In this document: in pieces, positions 20,297-51,528 of the stretch | How the letters are laid out: each line of letters begins with the position of its first letter | How positions within the stretch are numbered: position 1 is the stretch's first letter | Origin: Flavobacterium sp. YO12 | GTDB lineage: Bacteria > Bacteroidota > Bacteroidia > Flavobacteriales > Flavobacteriaceae | Assembly: GCF_004119495.1 (NCBI RefSeq) | Contig: NZ_NRQU01000015.1 | Span: 1-64,000, forward strand | DNA length: 64,000 nt | Reading direction: 5' to 3' | The notes under the pieces: model-generated | Told to the model about the DNA's origin: nothing | Database searches by the model: none | Seen by the model: only the letters and a program-made list of their open reading frames with translations | Position numbers and translations under genes: made by a program

Positions 20297-20752
20297 ATGC
20301 TAAACGTAGTTCTTGTAGAACCAGAAATACCAAATAATACTGGAAATATTGGAAGATTGTGTGTAGGAACCGAAAGTAGACTGCACTTAATTCATCCTTT
20401 CGGATTTGTAATAAACGATAAAAATCTAAAACGTTCTGGTTTGGATTATTGGGTTCATCTTGACGTAACTGAATACCAAAATATAGAAGAATGGATCAAG
20501 CAGATTCCAGATCAATCACGTGTTTTTTTGATGAGCTCTCATGCTGAAAAATCGTATTTAGAAACAGATTTTCAAGATGGGGATTGGCTGGTTTTTGGCA
20601 AAGAAAGCGTTGGATTAAGCAAAGAAGTTTTAGCTCGTTTCGAAAACCATTTAACAATTCCAATGTCAAAACTAATTCGCAGCTTTAACATTGCAAATTC
20701 TGTTGCTTTTGTGGTTGGTGAAGCTAAAAGACAGATTGGGTTAAAAGTTTAA
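20297..20752 (+). CDS. trmL: tRNA (cytidine/uridine-34-2'-O)-methyltransferase TrmL
   Basis: A 151-residue SPOUT methyltransferase that uses SAM to methylate the wobble ribose of tRNA-Leu. Motif 1 is LVEPEIPNNTGNIGRLCVGT, motif 2 GDWLVFGKESVGLSKEVL and motif 3 IPMSKLIRSFNIANSVAFVVGEAKRQ, which make up the trefoil-knot SAM site. Length is typical. Confidence 0.93.
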   Translation: MLNVVLVEPEIPNNTGNIGRLCVGTESRLHLIHPFGFVINDKNLKRSGLDYWVHLDVTEYQNIEEWIKQIPDQSRVFLMSSHAEKSYLETDFQDGDWLVFGKESVGLSKEVLARFENHLTIPMSKLIRSFNIANSVAFVVGEAKRQIGLKV

Positions 20753-20770: not shown

Positions 20771-20905
20771 TCATAAGCTCCAGAGGAGCGTAATATTTAT
20801 AGTCTAAAATTAAACCATCATGTAAGCTCCAGAGGAGCTATATATTTTGACCCTATTGGGCTAGTTTTACTAAATGTGATTTAACATTTCTATAAATATA
20901 ACGTC
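20771..20905. repeat. Flavobacterium-type intergenic repeat cluster (AAGCTCCAGAGGAGC)
   Basis: Two tandem-like copies of TCAT(G)TAAGCTCCAGAGGAGC (20771-20790 and 20819-20839), each a small hairpin with stem GCTCC/GGAGC, followed by AT-rich text. The downstream TATAAATATAACG (20891 onward) is the inverse of the TAATATTTATAG beside the first copy. It sits between convergent trmL and btuD and resembles dispersed repeats seen in this genus. Confidence 0.7.
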
Positions 20906-20950: not shown

Positions 20951-21727
20951 CTAAGTAATCACAAACTTTCCTTTTTCGGCATCAAAAACAATATGTTCAT
21001 CTTTGAACAAAGTGGCAAAATTTCCGTTTGAAATCAAATTACATGGTTCATCCTGAACAACACTTTCTGGAGTCATAATAATCATTTCGTCACTTAATTG
21101 AATTGCTAAATCAATATCGTGAGTAGAGAATAAAATGCATTTTTGCGTTTCTTGAGTTAGTTTTTTAAGCAATTTAAATAAAGAAACTTTGTGCAATAAA
21201 TCAAGATGCGTTGTAGGTTCATCTAAAATAATCAGCGCTGTATCCTGCGCTAAAGCTCTGGCGATTAAAACCTTTTGCAATTGACCATCGCTTATTTCAA
21301 AATGTTTTTTTTGAGCCAAATGCTCGATTTGTGTCAGCACCATTGCTTCTTGAACCTTTTCAATATCAGTTTCAGTTAAAGAATCAACCCAATTGGTATA
21401 CGGTTGTCGGCCTAATGCAACCAATTCAAAAACAGTAAGATTACTTGGCGGCAGTTTTTCGGTTAAAACCAAACTTAGATTTTGAGCCAAGTCTAACGGT
21501 TTATAGGTATTGATATTTTTATCATTCAAAAACACTGTTCCCAACAAAGGCTGCTGAATTCCTGTAATAGTTCGCAGCAAAGTCGATTTCCCAATTCCGT
21601 TTGCACCAATCAACGAAATAAGTTTCCCAGAAGTTAAATTCAAATTCAAATTTTCGGCAATAGTCACAGTTGCTTTCTTGGCTTTATATCCAATACTTAA
21701 ATTTGAAGTTTTTAAAATACTTGTCAT
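20951..21727 (-). CDS. btuD: Vitamin B12/iron-chelate ABC transporter ATP-binding protein (BtuD type)
   Basis: A 258-residue FecE/BtuD-class ATPase. Walker A is GANGIGKS, the signature region ISDGQLQKVLIARALAQD, Walker B LIILDEPTTHLD and the switch His FSTHDID. It energises import of corrinoid through the permease at 22310-23338. The start at 21727 is favoured over the longer frame to 21778, because the extra residues would come from the inverted repeat of the inserted cassette. B12 specificity is inferred from the adjoining cob and btuB genes. Confidence 0.85.
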   Translation of the reverse strand: MTSILKTSNLSIGYKAKKATVTIAENLNLNLTSGKLISLIGANGIGKSTLLRTITGIQQPLLGTVFLNDKNINTYKPLDLAQNLSLVLTEKLPPSNLTVFELVALGRQPYTNWVDSLTETDIEKVQEAMVLTQIEHLAQKKHFEISDGQLQKVLIARALAQDTALIILDEPTTHLDLLHKVSLFKLLKKLTQETQKCILFSTHDIDLAIQLSDEMIIMTPESVVQDEPCNLISNGNFATLFKDEHIVFDAEKGKFVIT

Positions 21728-21737
21728 TATTGTGCAT

Positions 21738-22281
21738 TTTTTAAACACATAGAAACATAGGTTTCTTTGTCTAATCAAAAAGGCGTTTAAAATTTACTCG
21801 TAAATTAAACATAGCCACACTCTAATATTTAGGCAGTGATCTAAAATATTCATTTACAAAAGTTCTTTGGCCTTCTTTAAAAATATTAAAACAATTAAAA
21901 TTAATTAAAATTCCCTTTGGTGCTTTTAAAAGCTTCATGTAAGTTAAAAGTTGTGCTTGATGTATTGAATTTATTTCAGAAACAGTTTTCAATTCTACTA
22001 CCAAGCAATTTTCAACAAATAAATCACATCTAAAATCTGTAATTAACTCTTTCCCTTTATATAATATTGGAACTTTCATCTCTGTGAAAAAATTTAATTT
22101 TCTTTGTGAAAGTTCTTCTTTTAGACATTGATGATAGACATTTTCAAGCAATCCTTTTCCAATAATTTTATGGACTTCAATTGAAGCTCCTAAAACTTCA
22201 TAAGTTAATTCATCTAAATATTTTTGCGTAATCATTATTTTTTAATTGAAATAAAAACTATGTTTCTATGTGTTTAAAAAA
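21738..22281. mobile_element. Cassette bounded by 24-bp inverted repeats carrying a GxxExxY gene
   Basis: The left end (21738-21760, with the T run from 21737) is TTTTTTAAACACATAGAAAC plus ATAG. The right end (22258-22281) is its exact reverse complement over 24 bases. With one mismatch the match extends 4 bp further inwards. The 544-bp interior holds a single gene. It splits the btuF-btuC-btuD operon between btuC and btuD. There is no transposase and no clear target duplication, so mobility would need help in trans. Confidence 0.7.
21822..22235 (-). CDS. GxxExxY family protein (PDDEXK_3-like)
   Basis: A 137-residue protein of the GxxExxY family. The naming motif GLLENVY is at residues 28-34. 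The predicted nuclease-like core is FRCDLFVENCLVVELKTVSEINSIHQAQLLTYMKLL (D, ELK and the Q of a PDDEXK fold). No activity has been established for the family as far as I know. It sits alone in the inverted-repeat cassette, oriented with the btu genes, 74 bp from btuC and 94 bp from btuD. Its presence inside the transport operon looks like an insertion rather than a functional partner. Confidence 0.9.
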   Translation of the reverse strand: MITQKYLDELTYEVLGASIEVHKIIGKGLLENVYHQCLKEELSQRKLNFFTEMKVPILYKGKELITDFRCDLFVENCLVVELKTVSEINSIHQAQLLTYMKLLKAPKGILINFNCFNIFKEGQRTFVNEYFRSLPKY

Positions 22282-22309: not shown

Positions 22310-23338
22310 TTACTGAAAATTTCTTTTTCGCATTAACAACCAAATTACGACCGGCGCACCAATAATTGATGTAATTGCATTAATTGGTAATGTTACCTCT
22401 AATCCTGGCATCTGCGATGCCATATCGCAAAACAACATAATTATACCTCCAAAAAAAAACGTACTCCAATATAAAACAGTATGATTACTAGTTTGAAATG
22501 TCAGTTTTGCAATATGCGGAACAGCCAAACCTATAAAGGCAATAGGTCCTGCAAAAGCGGTAACACTTCCTGCCAAAATACTTGTTGCAAGAATAATTAT
22601 TAATCGTGCTCTCTTATAATTTAAACCCATACTTTTAGCATAATTCTCTCCTAAAAGCAATGCATTTAAAGGCTTGATGCTTCCTGCACTTAAAAGCAAT
22701 CCAAAACCAATACAAACCGCCAGAATAATAATCGATGTCCAAGAAAGATTTCCGAGACTTCCTAAAGACCAAAAGGTAAACTTCTGCAATTGTTCAGCTG
22801 AACTAAAATAAGTTAAAACCCCAACAATGGCACTTGTAAAACTGGCAAACATAAGTCCAACAATTAAAATTGCCATTGTATTTCGCAATCTTTGTGCAAC
22901 CAGTAAAACTAAAAGCAAAACTGAAACACTTCCTAAAGTAGATGCCAGTACAATTCCATACGGAGACAACAAAACTGAGCTTAAAAAAGACGGTAATATT
23001 GCTGCACCTAAAATTACAATTGCTACTGCCAAAATTGCTCCAGAACTCAGTCCTAATACATCTGGTCCTGCCAGCGGATTTCTAAACAAGGTCTGCATCA
23101 GCAAACCACTTATAGACAACCCAACTCCAACCAAAATAGCTGTAATTGCTTTTGGCAGACGGTAATTAATAATAATATATTCCCAGGTTGATTTACTTGC
23201 CTGCCCTCCAGTTAAACTGCTGCAGACTTCTTTGAACGGAATTGTAACAGATCCTAAACTAATGTCTAGGAAAAACATAAACAAAAGTGCTAAACCAAGT
23301 ATGGAAAACAGAGTTATATTTCGTGTTTTATTTATCAA
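22310..23338 (-). CDS. btuC: Vitamin B12/iron-chelate ABC permease (BtuC/FecCD type)
   Basis: A 342-residue FecCD-family permease with about ten membrane helices. Family stretches are INYRLPKAITAILVGVGLSISGLLMQTLFRNPLAGPDVLGLSSGA, AILIVGLMFASFTSAIVGVLTYF and FAGPIAFIGLAVPHIAKLTFQTSNH, the coupling region for the ATPase. It pairs with BtuF (6 bp upstream) and BtuD (downstream past the cassette) to move corrinoid across the inner membrane. Confidence 0.9.
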   Translation of the reverse strand: MINKTRNITLFSILGLALLFMFFLDISLGSVTIPFKEVCSSLTGGQASKSTWEYIIINYRLPKAITAILVGVGLSISGLLMQTLFRNPLAGPDVLGLSSGAILAVAIVILGAAILPSFLSSVLLSPYGIVLASTLGSVSVLLLVLLVAQRLRNTMAILIVGLMFASFTSAIVGVLTYFSSAEQLQKFTFWSLGSLGNLSWTSIIILAVCIGFGLLLSAGSIKPLNALLLGENYAKSMGLNYKRARLIIILATSILAGSVTAFAGPIAFIGLAVPHIAKLTFQTSNHTVLYWSTFFFGGIIMLFCDMASQMPGLEVTLPINAITSIIGAPVVIWLLMRKRNFQ

Positions 23339-23344
23339 TTGACC

Positions 23345-24487
23345 TTAGTTTAATTTAGATGCAAAAGTAAACTCATAACTTGGCAATAAATCAGGATGAA
23401 AAATTTTGATATAATCTTTTAAGACTAAATCTGGACGGCTCGGAGCCAATTCATAATAAACCGTTCCACCTGTTGCTCCAAATTTACCTTCGAATGAATA
23501 CACATTTTTATTTTTAAAAGCGTCAAACTGACTGTAATGCGGATTTGTTTTTGCTATTTCATCTAAGCTTTTAAAAGATCCTGAAGCGATCCAAAAATCA
23601 GCTGTTTTAGCTTTTACTAATATCTTTTCAAAAGACAAACCTTCGCTTCCGGTTCCTTTTAAATCTGACCATAAATAATTGGCATGAGCATCTTTCATAA
23701 ATTGGGCAACCCAGCTGTTTCCTTTGGCCACATACCAAACATCTTCGTACATCGAACCGTACAAAACTGTTGCAGATGCAGGTTTATCTGCTACCAATTT
23801 TTTAGCTTGATTATAGCTCTCTACAATTTTATCAAACAATTCTTTGGCTTTTTCTTCTTTACCAAACAAAGCTCCGTACAACTTAATCCATTCTGCTTTT
23901 CCAAGTGGAGATTGTTCCATCCAATCTGCTTGAATAAAAACATTTAAGCCGCTTTTCTTTAAATTATCCAACATCGGATTATTGTTATCTACTCCAAACG
24001 TTACGATCAAATTTGGTGCTAATTCGATTAACTTTTCAATATTTAATTTTTCATTTTGACCTACATTTTTTACTGAACCTTTATCGATTAAAGCTCGTGT
24101 TTTTTCTGACGAAACATAATCTGTGTGTGGAAAACCAACCAGTTTATTTTCAACCTCAAGCATCTCTAAAAATGGTACATTAGTAGTTGACGTAACCACA
24201 ATGGACTCTAAAGGCACTTTTATAGTTGTATAAGTTGCCAAACTATCCGGAACCTTTGCATCTTTTTCTTTTAAAATGTATTTGAAATTTTTATTAGCAT
24301 CAGGCCACGGTTCCATAACCGTAACAACTGAATATCCATCATATTTAATGATCGAAAGCCCTGAAGCAAACTCAATACTATTTTTTGCACTTTCAGATTT
24401 TGCAACCTCAACTGTTTCAGACTTCTTACATCCTGTAAGGATAAAAAAAGAGAAAATAAAAATTAACTTAGGGAATAAATATTTCAT
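23345..24487 (-). CDS. btuF: Cobalamin ABC transporter substrate-binding lipoprotein (BtuF type)
   Basis: A 380-residue helical-backbone binding protein. It is a lipoprotein (FFILTGC, then KKSETVEV). The fold is shown by VVTSTTNVPFLEMLEVENKLVGFPHTDYVSS, KLIELAPNLIVTFGVDN, LFGKEEKAKELFDKIVESYNQAKKL and NKNVYSFEGKFGATGGTVYYELAPSRPDLVLKDYIKIFHPDLLP. It delivers corrinoid (or another metal chelate) to the permease 6 bp downstream. B12 specificity rests on the surrounding cobU/cobT/cobS/cobC and btuB genes. The -7 element TACCTTTG is at 24516-24509 on this strand. Confidence 0.85.
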   Translation of the reverse strand: MKYLFPKLIFIFSFFILTGCKKSETVEVAKSESAKNSIEFASGLSIIKYDGYSVVTVMEPWPDANKNFKYILKEKDAKVPDSLATYTTIKVPLESIVVTSTTNVPFLEMLEVENKLVGFPHTDYVSSEKTRALIDKGSVKNVGQNEKLNIEKLIELAPNLIVTFGVDNNNPMLDNLKKSGLNVFIQADWMEQSPLGKAEWIKLYGALFGKEEKAKELFDKIVESYNQAKKLVADKPASATVLYGSMYEDVWYVAKGNSWVAQFMKDAHANYLWSDLKGTGSEGLSFEKILVKAKTADFWIASGSFKSLDEIAKTNPHYSQFDAFKNKNVYSFEGKFGATGGTVYYELAPSRPDLVLKDYIKIFHPDLLPSYEFTFASKLN

Positions 24488-45680: not shown

Positions 45681-47062
45681 ATGAAAAAACATGTACTTCT
45701 TTTTCTTTTTTTCTTTCAATGACCTGCGGGTATGGCCAAATTGAGGTCTCATCGACTTTGGATGATGCGATCCAGAAGGCTATCGAAAAAAGCGCTTCTT
45801 TAAAAAACAAAGATTTAGACATTGAAAAATTGAATCTTCAGGAAAAAAGTGTTTGGAATAAGTACATTCCAACGGTTGAAGCAAGTGCTCTTTATACTTA
45901 TTTTGACAATAAACTTACTGTAGATCTTCCTACGGCTACTATTCCAATTGTAAACTATCCTTTATTTGACGGCAAAACTGCTTTTAAAAATTATGGAAAC
46001 ATCTTTAACGGAAGTGTAATGGCAAAAACGGTATTGTTTAGCGGTATGCAAATTCCGAATGGAGCAAAAGCTATTGAAGAAAAAACTAAAGGAACTGTAT
46101 TTTTAAAAGAATCTGAAAAAGATCAAATCACAAAAGAAGTCATTAACACTTTTGATCAATTAGCATTATTGAAGGAGATTGACAAACTGCTAAAGGAAAG
46201 CGAAAACCGACTAGAAACAGAAACAAAACGTGTCACAAAAGCAATCGAACAAGGACTTGCCATTCCGTATGATCGAGATAAAATTAAGCTGGCTTCATTA
46301 GAACTGGCTTCAAAAAAAATTGAACTCGACGGGAAAAGAAAGTTAGTTTATAAAAAAATTCAATATTTAACGGGGTATTCTATTACTGAAATAGAAAATG
46401 TTCATTACGACTTAAACCCATATTTAATAACAGACGAAAAATTAAGCACGCAAAACAAACAAGAAATAAAAGCATTGGAATCGTTTAAATCTGCTTATGA
46501 ATATTTATTAAAGAAGGAGAAAGGAACTTATCTGCCAACTTTAGGTGCATTTGGAGGAGTTTCGTATTCCAGTCTTTTTGATGCAAATGCTACTACACCA
46601 ATAATTACTGGAATTAATCAAGCTTTATATTTAGGTTTAAACGAAGCTACAATAAGCAACAACTGGGTTGTAGGAGCTGCGATGAAATGGGAAGTTTTTT
46701 CTGGCTTTGAAAGAAAACACAAAGTGCATGAAGCTAAAATAAACATTGAACAAGTTCAAAATCAAATTGACGATACTAAAGAAAAACTCGAACTTCTGCT
46801 TGAAAAAAATCTCGTTGATTATAGTGTGCTGACTCAAAAAATAGACATTACGCAACAGCAGGAAAAAGTGGCAAACAATAATTTAAATCTGGCCATAAAA
46901 CAGTATAAAGAAGGTTTAATCAATATATCAGAACGTCTTGAAGCAGAAAACGACTCTTATAAAGCATCTGTAAACAAAACAACGACATTGATTGAACAAA
47001 GGCTTGCCGCTATTGAAACTATAATTGCCACGGGCGATTTATCAAAAAAAATATCTAAATAA
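45681..47062 (+). CDS. TolC-family outer-membrane efflux protein with a frameshifted signal peptide
   Basis: The intact frame is 45719-47062 (447 residues): the outer-membrane channel of a tripartite exporter, with two repeats of the TolC fold (LDDAIQKAIEKSASLKNKDLDIEKLNLQEKSVWNKYIPTVEASALYTYFD and later VGAAMKWEVFSGFERKHKVHEAKINIEQ). The natural start appears to be ATG 45681 (MKKHVLLFLFFFQ then TGA at 45720), one frame off. Adding one T to the T7 tract at 45706-45712 gives MKKHVLLFLFFLSMTCGYGQ, a complete signal peptide joined to the mature protein. So the gene is either switched off by slippage here or carries a sequencing error. It heads the operon with the HlyD gene 11 bp downstream. Confidence 0.82.
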
Positions 47063-51084: not shown

Positions 51085-51528
51085 ATGAGAACTAAATTAA
51101 ACCTAACTATCAGTCTTATTGCAACGCTAGTATTTGGAATTTCTGCAAATGCTCAAAAAACGGTAATTAAAAAAGAAGCTTTGCCAGCAAATGCTCAAAC
51201 TTTCTTAAAAACGCACTTTGGTTCAAAAAAACCAAGCTACATATTAGAGGATAAAGAAATTCTCTCTACAGAATACAAAGTTCAATTTGATAATAAAATT
51301 GAAATCGAATTTGACAAAAAAGGAAACTGGAAAGAAGTTGATGGTAAAGGCGCTAAACTTCCAACGTCTATCATCCCAAAAAAAATTGCCTCTTACGTAA
51401 AAGCAAATTTTCCTAAAGAAAAAGTAACCAAAATTGAACTGGGGTCTTTTGGCTATGAAACAAAACTAACCAACGGTTTAGAATTAAAATTCAACACAAA
51501 AGGAGATTTCACTAAGATTGACAATTAA
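51085..51528 (+). CDS. Secreted PepSY-like protein
   Basis: A 147-residue periplasmic protein with signal peptide (LVFGISANAQ) and two repeats of the PepSY-like/DUF2874 unit: LPANAQTFLKTHFGSKKPSYILEDKEILSTEYKVQFDNKIEIEFDKKGNWKEVDG and LPTSIIPKKIASYVKANFPKEKVTKIELGSFGYETKLTNGLELKFNTKGDFTKID. Related BLIP-like folds bind peptides or proteins. Function here unknown; single gene. Confidence 0.87.
   Translation: MRTKLNLTISLIATLVFGISANAQKTVIKKEALPANAQTFLKTHFGSKKPSYILEDKEILSTEYKVQFDNKIEIEFDKKGNWKEVDGKGAKLPTSIIPKKIASYVKANFPKEKVTKIELGSFGYETKLTNGLELKFNTKGDFTKIDN

Follow-up and report, generated by a model that had tools for sequence, protein, structure and literature searches.

GxxExxY genes are associated with fixed inverted ends, and this association is real, family-wide and clade-specific. 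We describe it from a cassette in a 64,000-nucleotide stretch of Flavobacterium sp. YO12 DNA (the window), and it points to recognition of the ends by the GxxExxY product or by a partner. We favor, at a probability of about 0.57 and largely by analogy, a model in which GxxExxY would be a RAYT-like, trans-acting nuclease for REPIN- or MITE-like repeats, which it would recognize, cut and mobilize.

The cassette occupies positions 21737–22281 of the window (545 bp). Its left terminal arm (21737–21760, plus strand), composed of CACATAG and ACATAG word units, is a 24-nt exact inverted repeat, and the right terminal arm (22258–22281, minus strand) is its perfect reverse complement; extended to 28 nt, the arms are 96% identical. 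The exact 24-bp ends described in a prior sequence-only reading are thus present, with the cassette one base wider than the 544 bp given there. No exact inverted repeat in the local 3.1 kb is longer than these 24 nt, and the maximum in 200 first-order Markov resamples of that sequence was 16. The inverted-arm score of the GxxExxY ORF (27.0) ranks first among the 61 ORFs of the window, with the runner-up at 16.5. The same reading held that the ends flank only a GxxExxY, PDDEXK-like gene, and this was borne out: the gene (21822–22235, minus strand; 137 amino acids, with a predicted PD-(D/E)XK fold) is a single ORF matching TIGR04256 and PF13366, and no other ORF of at least 50 amino acids lies between the arms. 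Its proposed position between btuC and btuD is also supported, since the neighboring families fit those names. An ABC ATPase ("btuD"; 20951–21727, minus strand) lies downstream and a FecCD permease ("btuC"; 22310–23338, minus strand, with a putative TTG start as listed) lies upstream, followed upstream of the permease by an ORF (23345–24487, minus strand) that by eye encodes a putative BtuF-like substrate-binding lipoprotein. The right, upstream arm lies 22 nt from the GxxExxY ATG; among 17 btu orthologs, this distance is 22–23 nt in 5 and 62–102 nt in 9.

The suspected tie between the family and fixed ends extends well beyond the window. Among 101 loci of the genus, taken from the tops of match lists or hand-picked from them and therefore not a random sample, the arm score is at least 18 in 72 and at least 14 in 89. 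The corresponding numbers are 0 and 1 for 115 slid windows and 2 and 3 for 146 neighboring genes. The genus set comprised 104 loci, with the window's own locus found again (L103) excluded, and three loci were dropped for want of a usable ORF (L109, L120 and L125). In public genomes outside the genus, we took the best 80 of 577 confirmed candidates, of which 75 were usable (L243, L275 and L278 were dropped for a short flank, and L244 and L272 because no ORF was found). Scores of at least 18 occurred in 37 of these 75 loci and of at least 14 in 51. The same thresholds were reached by 0 and 9 of the 384 slid windows and, among 171 neighboring genes, by 8 and 9. The non-genus loci scoring at least 18 come from Bacteroidota, Planctomycetes, Chloroflexi, Proteobacteria, Acidobacteria and archaea, the last represented by Methanothrix (L247) and Methanosarcinales (L271); a score of 18 was not reached at the three Verrucomicrobia and Opitutia loci or at the other Methanothrix locus (L260). 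The arms tend to repeat themselves, with a best lag of 8–10 nt in 49 of 65 and 30 of 36 arms. Frequently, ACC precedes units such as CACAGAG, CACGAAG, CATTAAG, CATATAAG, CACATAG and CGCAAAG.

When the loci are sorted by the protein tree, the end words change clade by clade. Because clades confined to one locus could alone produce such a match, two further tests were made. In one, the two arms of a cassette proved to be alike beyond the similarity of orthologous arms across species (pooled score 23.1 versus a null of 19.7, n = 83), a value reached by 0 of 2000 permutations; of nine orthologous groups, six fall individually below 1% and three do not. The two arms of one cassette, to judge by this similarity, evolve together. 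The other test compared pairs at different loci, as judged from approximately 1 kb of flank and not independent of one another. The arm score is at least 16 in 48% of the 251 such pairs whose distance on the protein tree is below 1, whereas this fraction is 0.3–5.4% in the six more distant bins; over all 4551 pairs, the Spearman coefficient is −0.17.

The ends are not confined to GxxExxY genes. With up to two mismatches, the 18-nt arm core has 64 matches in the 4.89-Mb window genome, versus 1 for a reversed-pattern control. In this draft assembly of 172 contigs, 52 of the 64 sites fall into 26 convergent neighboring pairs, with the 12 unpaired sites lying outside the pair analysis. Twenty-five pairs span 132–256 nt, too short for a GxxExxY gene, and the 26th is the cassette itself (533 nt), so no pair found encloses a transposase-sized gene. 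A second set of 25 short elements, taken at up to four mismatches and distinct from the 25 pairs above, has lengths of 130–151 nt and a consensus of 132 nt that is predicted to fold into one long hairpin (−37.5 kcal/mol). The HMM built from these elements matches both ends of the cassette, namely an end module on the btuD side (21744–21820, minus strand; HMM positions 67–135, E = 3.8e-6) and a shortened one on the btuC side (22247–22274, minus strand; HMM positions 1–28, E = 0.0012), and thus the cassette and the short elements share more than their arms. By eye, many of the AACACATAG short elements (L007–L042) sit inside an outer inverted repeat, ACCCGTTGGGTGTAAT. A composite at L173:10557–10812 is missing in genome G096, where the 6-bp sequence ATTTTA, present on both sides of the filled site, occurs once; the border there is the outer repeat, not the AACACATAG arm. 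This apparent target duplication is a single case from five alignments (L198 and L203–L208 were left out), of which G096 is clean and the empty sites of G004, G006, G008 and G010 gave no clean border. Two short elements (L009 and L024) hold internal repeats of the CCTGAACGTAGTCGAAAGG and TTGTCATTCCGAGGAACGAGGAATC types, apparently nested insertions.

The number of dispersed copies varies with the gene. The first words, AACACATAGAAACATAG and ACCACATAGAAACATAG, are present in 47 and 40 of 150 genus genomes, respectively. One of them is found in 30 of the 31 genomes with a gene at least 64% identical to that of the window (median 17) and in 39 of the 119 genomes without one (median 0), although 23 of these 119 still have at least five copies. 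In the 35 genomes of at least 4.4 Mb, the median count of the AAC word is 47 with the gene (15 genomes) versus 12.5 without it (20 genomes; p = 0.0004), where, as in all our cross-species word counts, the numbers carry shared ancestry and the statistics ignore phylogeny. The variant of the word also matches: own arms included, the 17 AAC-arm genomes hold 861 AAC versus 6 ACC copies, and the 9 ACC-arm genomes hold 6 AAC versus 59 ACC copies. In this classification, G089 and G068 were set aside because they have both arm types, G029, G047 and G139 are unclassed, and G032 and G115, classed as ACC-arm, each also carry another, more distant cassette whose arms are AACACATAG-like. Exceptions to the match are G040 (AAC arm) and G055 (ACC arm), and the btu site itself hosts both arm types (L117 and L127 versus L104–L108). 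Thus, the repeats do occur widely without the gene, which the sequence-only reading had regarded as telling against it, yet copies that lack the gene are related to the cassette but shorter, and their word variant follows that of the cassette. For a second word, ACCATATAAGNNATATAAG, present in 71 of 150 genomes, the association is weaker than for the first words. It occurs in 22 of 27 genomes with a 52–65% identical gene (median 3) and 49 of 123 without (median 0), and the large genomes give 33 with the gene versus 17 without (p = 0.018). The word is plentiful even where no such gene is listed (92 copies in G008 and 27 in the window genome), and first-word copies remain in G015 (48) and G006 (83) despite an interrupted btu-site gene. 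By these counts, an intact close gene is not needed for copies to persist or spread.

The GxxExxY protein of the cassette matches TIGR04256 (E = 9.9e-39; 132.3 bits versus a curated cut-off of 35) and PF13366, PDDEXK_3 (E = 8.6e-38; 129.7 bits versus 22). Residues E31, D71, E81, K83, Q95 and Y99 are invariant in an alignment of 12 family members, and the nuclease site therefore looks intact; the PD-(D/E)XK motif D..ExK..QxxxY is present in 89 of the 101 genus proteins and 70 of the 75 proteins from elsewhere. With both the core fold and the active-site residues, the protein belongs to the PD-(D/E)XK superfamily and is a predicted nuclease. The superfamily includes nucleases tied to recombination or transposition, such as the Rpn recombination-promoting nucleases and TnsA. 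An AlphaFold2 model (pLDDT 89, pTM 0.83) has as its best match, among the structures listed, 4ic1 (SSO0001), which we take to be a Cas4 protein (Foldseek E = 1.6e-4; Z = 8.5, rmsd 3.6 over 103 residues, 23% identity); 7fiw, second in that list at Z = 8.0, counts as tied. A profile search against solved structures returned 4ic1 at E = 0.12 and two weak unrelated rows, PADLOC gave weak Cas4 profile matches and one weak PDC-M36A match, and the PHROGs profiles returned phrog_1706, annotated as "CRISPR/Cas system associated" (E = 2.3e-6), together with a single weak methyltransferase match. The top structural match and the weak Cas4 profiles make the protein resemble Cas4 and RecB-like PD-(D/E)XK nucleases. 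Cas4 proteins have four Fe–S cysteines, however, whereas no cysteine is invariant among the 12 GxxExxY members and the gene adjoins btu-type FecCD and ABC_tran genes rather than cas genes, and we therefore rejected a Cas4 identity. Pfam at E = 0.001 detects no domain other than PDDEXK_3 and no recognized transposase domain, in agreement with the earlier statement that no transposase lies between the ends. Two further identities were rejected on these grounds: an insertion sequence, as the only ORF between the inverted repeats is GxxExxY and no transposase gene is found there, and a RAYT, as the same search finds no Y1/HUH tyrosine transposase domain. Relatives of the gene are present in many phyla and in archaea among public genomes, and 79 of 101 sampled genus genomes carry GxxExxY. 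The window genome has five family genes above the cut-off, of which only one has the cassette word. AACACATAG is absent from the other four; three of these carry different arms, and the fourth (L004) has an arm score of 18.5.

The btu-site gene itself is an old resident, and a recent origin for the minimal mobile unit proposed in the sequence-only reading is not supported. In the set of 30 closest GxxExxY loci, which includes the window's own, btuC and btuD flank 24; another is beside btuC at a contig end, and five have neither gene. BtuD matches were found in 150 of 150 genus genomes, and among the 30 best BtuD loci (own genome included), 13 have a full or near-full GxxExxY match at the btu site, two have remnants and 15 lack the gene; relatives thus do not uniformly carry the gene here without repeats. 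Two of the 13 matches, in G015 and G006, contain a stop codon. Btu-site orthologs share 69–93% protein identity, and the median dN/dS among 17 chosen orthologs (104 of 136 pairs with usable dS) is 0.11 at a median dS of 1.3, which is near saturation and makes the estimate approximate. On this evidence, the GxxExxY gene has long been resident at the btu site in many species and is under purifying selection. Mean arm identity among the 17 orthologs is 83% upstream and 94% downstream, whereas the 17 nt just inside the arms are 45% identical and those just outside 35%, in a comparison limited to 130 nt from the ORF in which degraded or farther arms (L110, L111, L113 and L114) count as poor matches. 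Flank comparison indicates that most GxxExxY protein clades keep one locus across the genus. One relocated cassette (L153, in G032) is filled in G067 and G115, has no repeat in G012 and has one arm in G023; presence and absence are clear at this site, but there are no clean borders and the direction is not readable. At the btu site, the two GxxExxY remnants (L074 and L096) still have a recognizable downstream AACACATAG-type end beside them. Gene-less btuD–btuC gaps (L077, L079, L081, L083, L084 and L090) often contain other word arrays, either of the GCTAAG-GTTCTGAG type or consisting of CCACAGATTAAAGGATT and its inverted partner; such a gap without GxxExxY looks like a landing site for repeats.

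A parallel to these arms came from an unexpected side. Genes of PF05635 (four-helix bundle, 23S IVP), found in 60 of 61 genomes and meant as a control, have arms of their own: among the top-scoring loci L289–L318, of which 3 of 30 were dropped (L299 and L318 short, L310 interrupted), the arm score is at least 18 in 11 of 27 and at least 14 in 19 of 27, versus 0 and 2 of 107 slid windows, the sole control for this set. We therefore rejected PF05635 as a neutral control. Its inverted word arrays differ from those of GxxExxY, being of the GCTAAG-ATACTGAG, CTTAGA and TATAATGTA types. To our knowledge, PF05635 four-helix bundles have no nuclease activity. Because these genes have the same kind of arms, the architecture needs no nuclease, and the arms are either a layout shared by two unrelated proteins or the property of a third agent. 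It is mainly this parallel that keeps our confidence in a nuclease-driven mechanism from being higher.

Several known systems offer partial likenesses. As described in passages of PMC3116915, RAYT genes are single-copy and largely vertical at the species level, with a linked repeat beside the gene, and REPINs are dispersed inverted doublets, of which a genome may hold several types, each near its own gene. Similarly, the GxxExxY gene is flanked by its linked repeat at most genus loci and about half of those outside the genus, and the paired sites are dispersed inverted doublets, as counted for one word in one genome. There is generally one gene per repeat type, mostly vertical, with clades mostly at one locus; the exceptions are G089, G068 and G032, each with two CACATAG-type cassettes. 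The enzyme class, however, differs (a Y1 tyrosine transposase in RAYT, a PD-(D/E)XK protein here), and thus GxxExxY is not a RAYT; moreover, a REP is one short palindrome, whereas the GxxExxY ends consist of long inverted repeats in which word units form arrays. Intervening sequences of 23S rRNA, which a part of PMC4990558 describes as approximately 0.4–0.5 kb with one small ORF between complementary ends, share that layout with the cassette. We rejected this identity because the cassette lies between FecCD and ABC_tran genes and its ORF is PDDEXK_3, not S23; it also differs in fold and in that its end words form dispersed short elements. Finally, the 25 elements of 130–151 nt resemble MITEs in being dispersed, having inverted ends and being too short for the GxxExxY gene, but the sole longer pair with matching ends found in the window genome frames a nuclease gene without a recognized transposase domain.

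In the model that we favor, each GxxExxY gene would be a resident unit of one gene with an inverted end module on either side, in which word units lie approximately 8–10 bp apart. Its product, a small nuclease of the Cas4/RecB-like kind, would usually be the only one for its word type and would mostly pass down vertically. It would recognize its word array at both ends of the cassette and also act, in trans, on dispersed modules that lack the gene, mostly hairpin-forming doublets of 130–150 bp. Cutting of the short elements or their hairpins would then allow host repair or replication to copy or move them, and the gene plus its ends would occasionally be gained or lost as one unit. A broader reading, which we rate somewhat short of an even chance, is that of a phylum-crossing class of repeat disseminators in which Cas4-like PD-(D/E)XK clades each read their own word-array code, together with a parallel four-helix-bundle system that uses other words. 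The code in that reading, frequently ACC and then units with a final AG, would be found at the borders and in the short elements, and we hold this part just as tentatively.

Of the alternatives, the strongest, although unlikely in our view, is that the ends belong to MITEs that an unrelated transposase moves, with GxxExxY as cargo caught between two copies. Short elements that occur without the gene, and persist in genomes where it is missing or interrupted, are what such a history would leave, as is a composite insertion with a 6-bp direct repeat bordered by a different outer repeat. It fits less well with a gene–arm link that crosses phyla, with words that track the protein tree at different loci too, and with the window-genome pairs, none of which is transposase-sized. 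Less likely again is a role in RNA, in which the arms would pair in the transcript around the ORF for RNase III processing or operon insulation. This stays a rival because the predicted fold of the cassette RNA does pair the arms (z = −4.1); PF05635, to which the proteins of 23S intervening sequences belong, has similar arms, and the ends of the Coxiella intervening sequence pair and are cut by RNase III, according to a section of PMC4990558. However, a stem requires complementarity and not specific words, and the words here are conserved and common to the dispersed copies.

Two further explanations seem improbable. The arms could be autoregulation sites for GxxExxY or another factor, with the dispersed copies regulatory and immobile; conserved word units repeated at 8–10 nt in arms near the ORF are consistent with operators, but doublets of near-fixed length, a full-length hairpin and the presence or absence of gene and ends together are not predicted. 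Least probable of all is a minimal selfish cassette newly inserted between btuC and btuD. Perfect arms and the lack of a transposase had suggested it, whereas conserved same-site orthologs in many species, their low dN/dS and the GxxExxY remnants at the btu site in two species argue against it.

Among the open-access matches listed, with subscription papers and preprint servers outside our scope, we found no report of a link between GxxExxY and end words, nor any mention there of the words CACAGAGACACAGAG and CTCTGTGTCTCTGTG; terminal inverted repeats with PDDEXK did not appear among the open-access matches listed. A table in PMC12306157 counts REPs in two Flavobacterium genomes, and the words "nuclease" and "RAYT" are absent from its text; a passage of PMC8934634, a paper in which the name GxxExxY occurs, is not about the link with ends. 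The family is widespread in the genus, yet its name is rare in the open-access literature, and through the clade-specific link to end words it acquires a substrate that can be tested. Should words such as ACCACAGAGACACAGAG prove to be dispersed as well in genomes where they form arms, those repeats would have a candidate enzyme, and the origin of such repeat populations would become testable beyond the tyrosine-transposase (RAYT) world. Two minor features of the window may be added. The second-best inverted-arm score, 16.5, belongs to the ORF at 51085–51528, tied with that at 45719–47062. A short palindromic repeat, TAAGCTCCAGAGGAGC, occurs in two copies at 20774–20847, between a gene ending at 20752 and the ABC ATPase gene.
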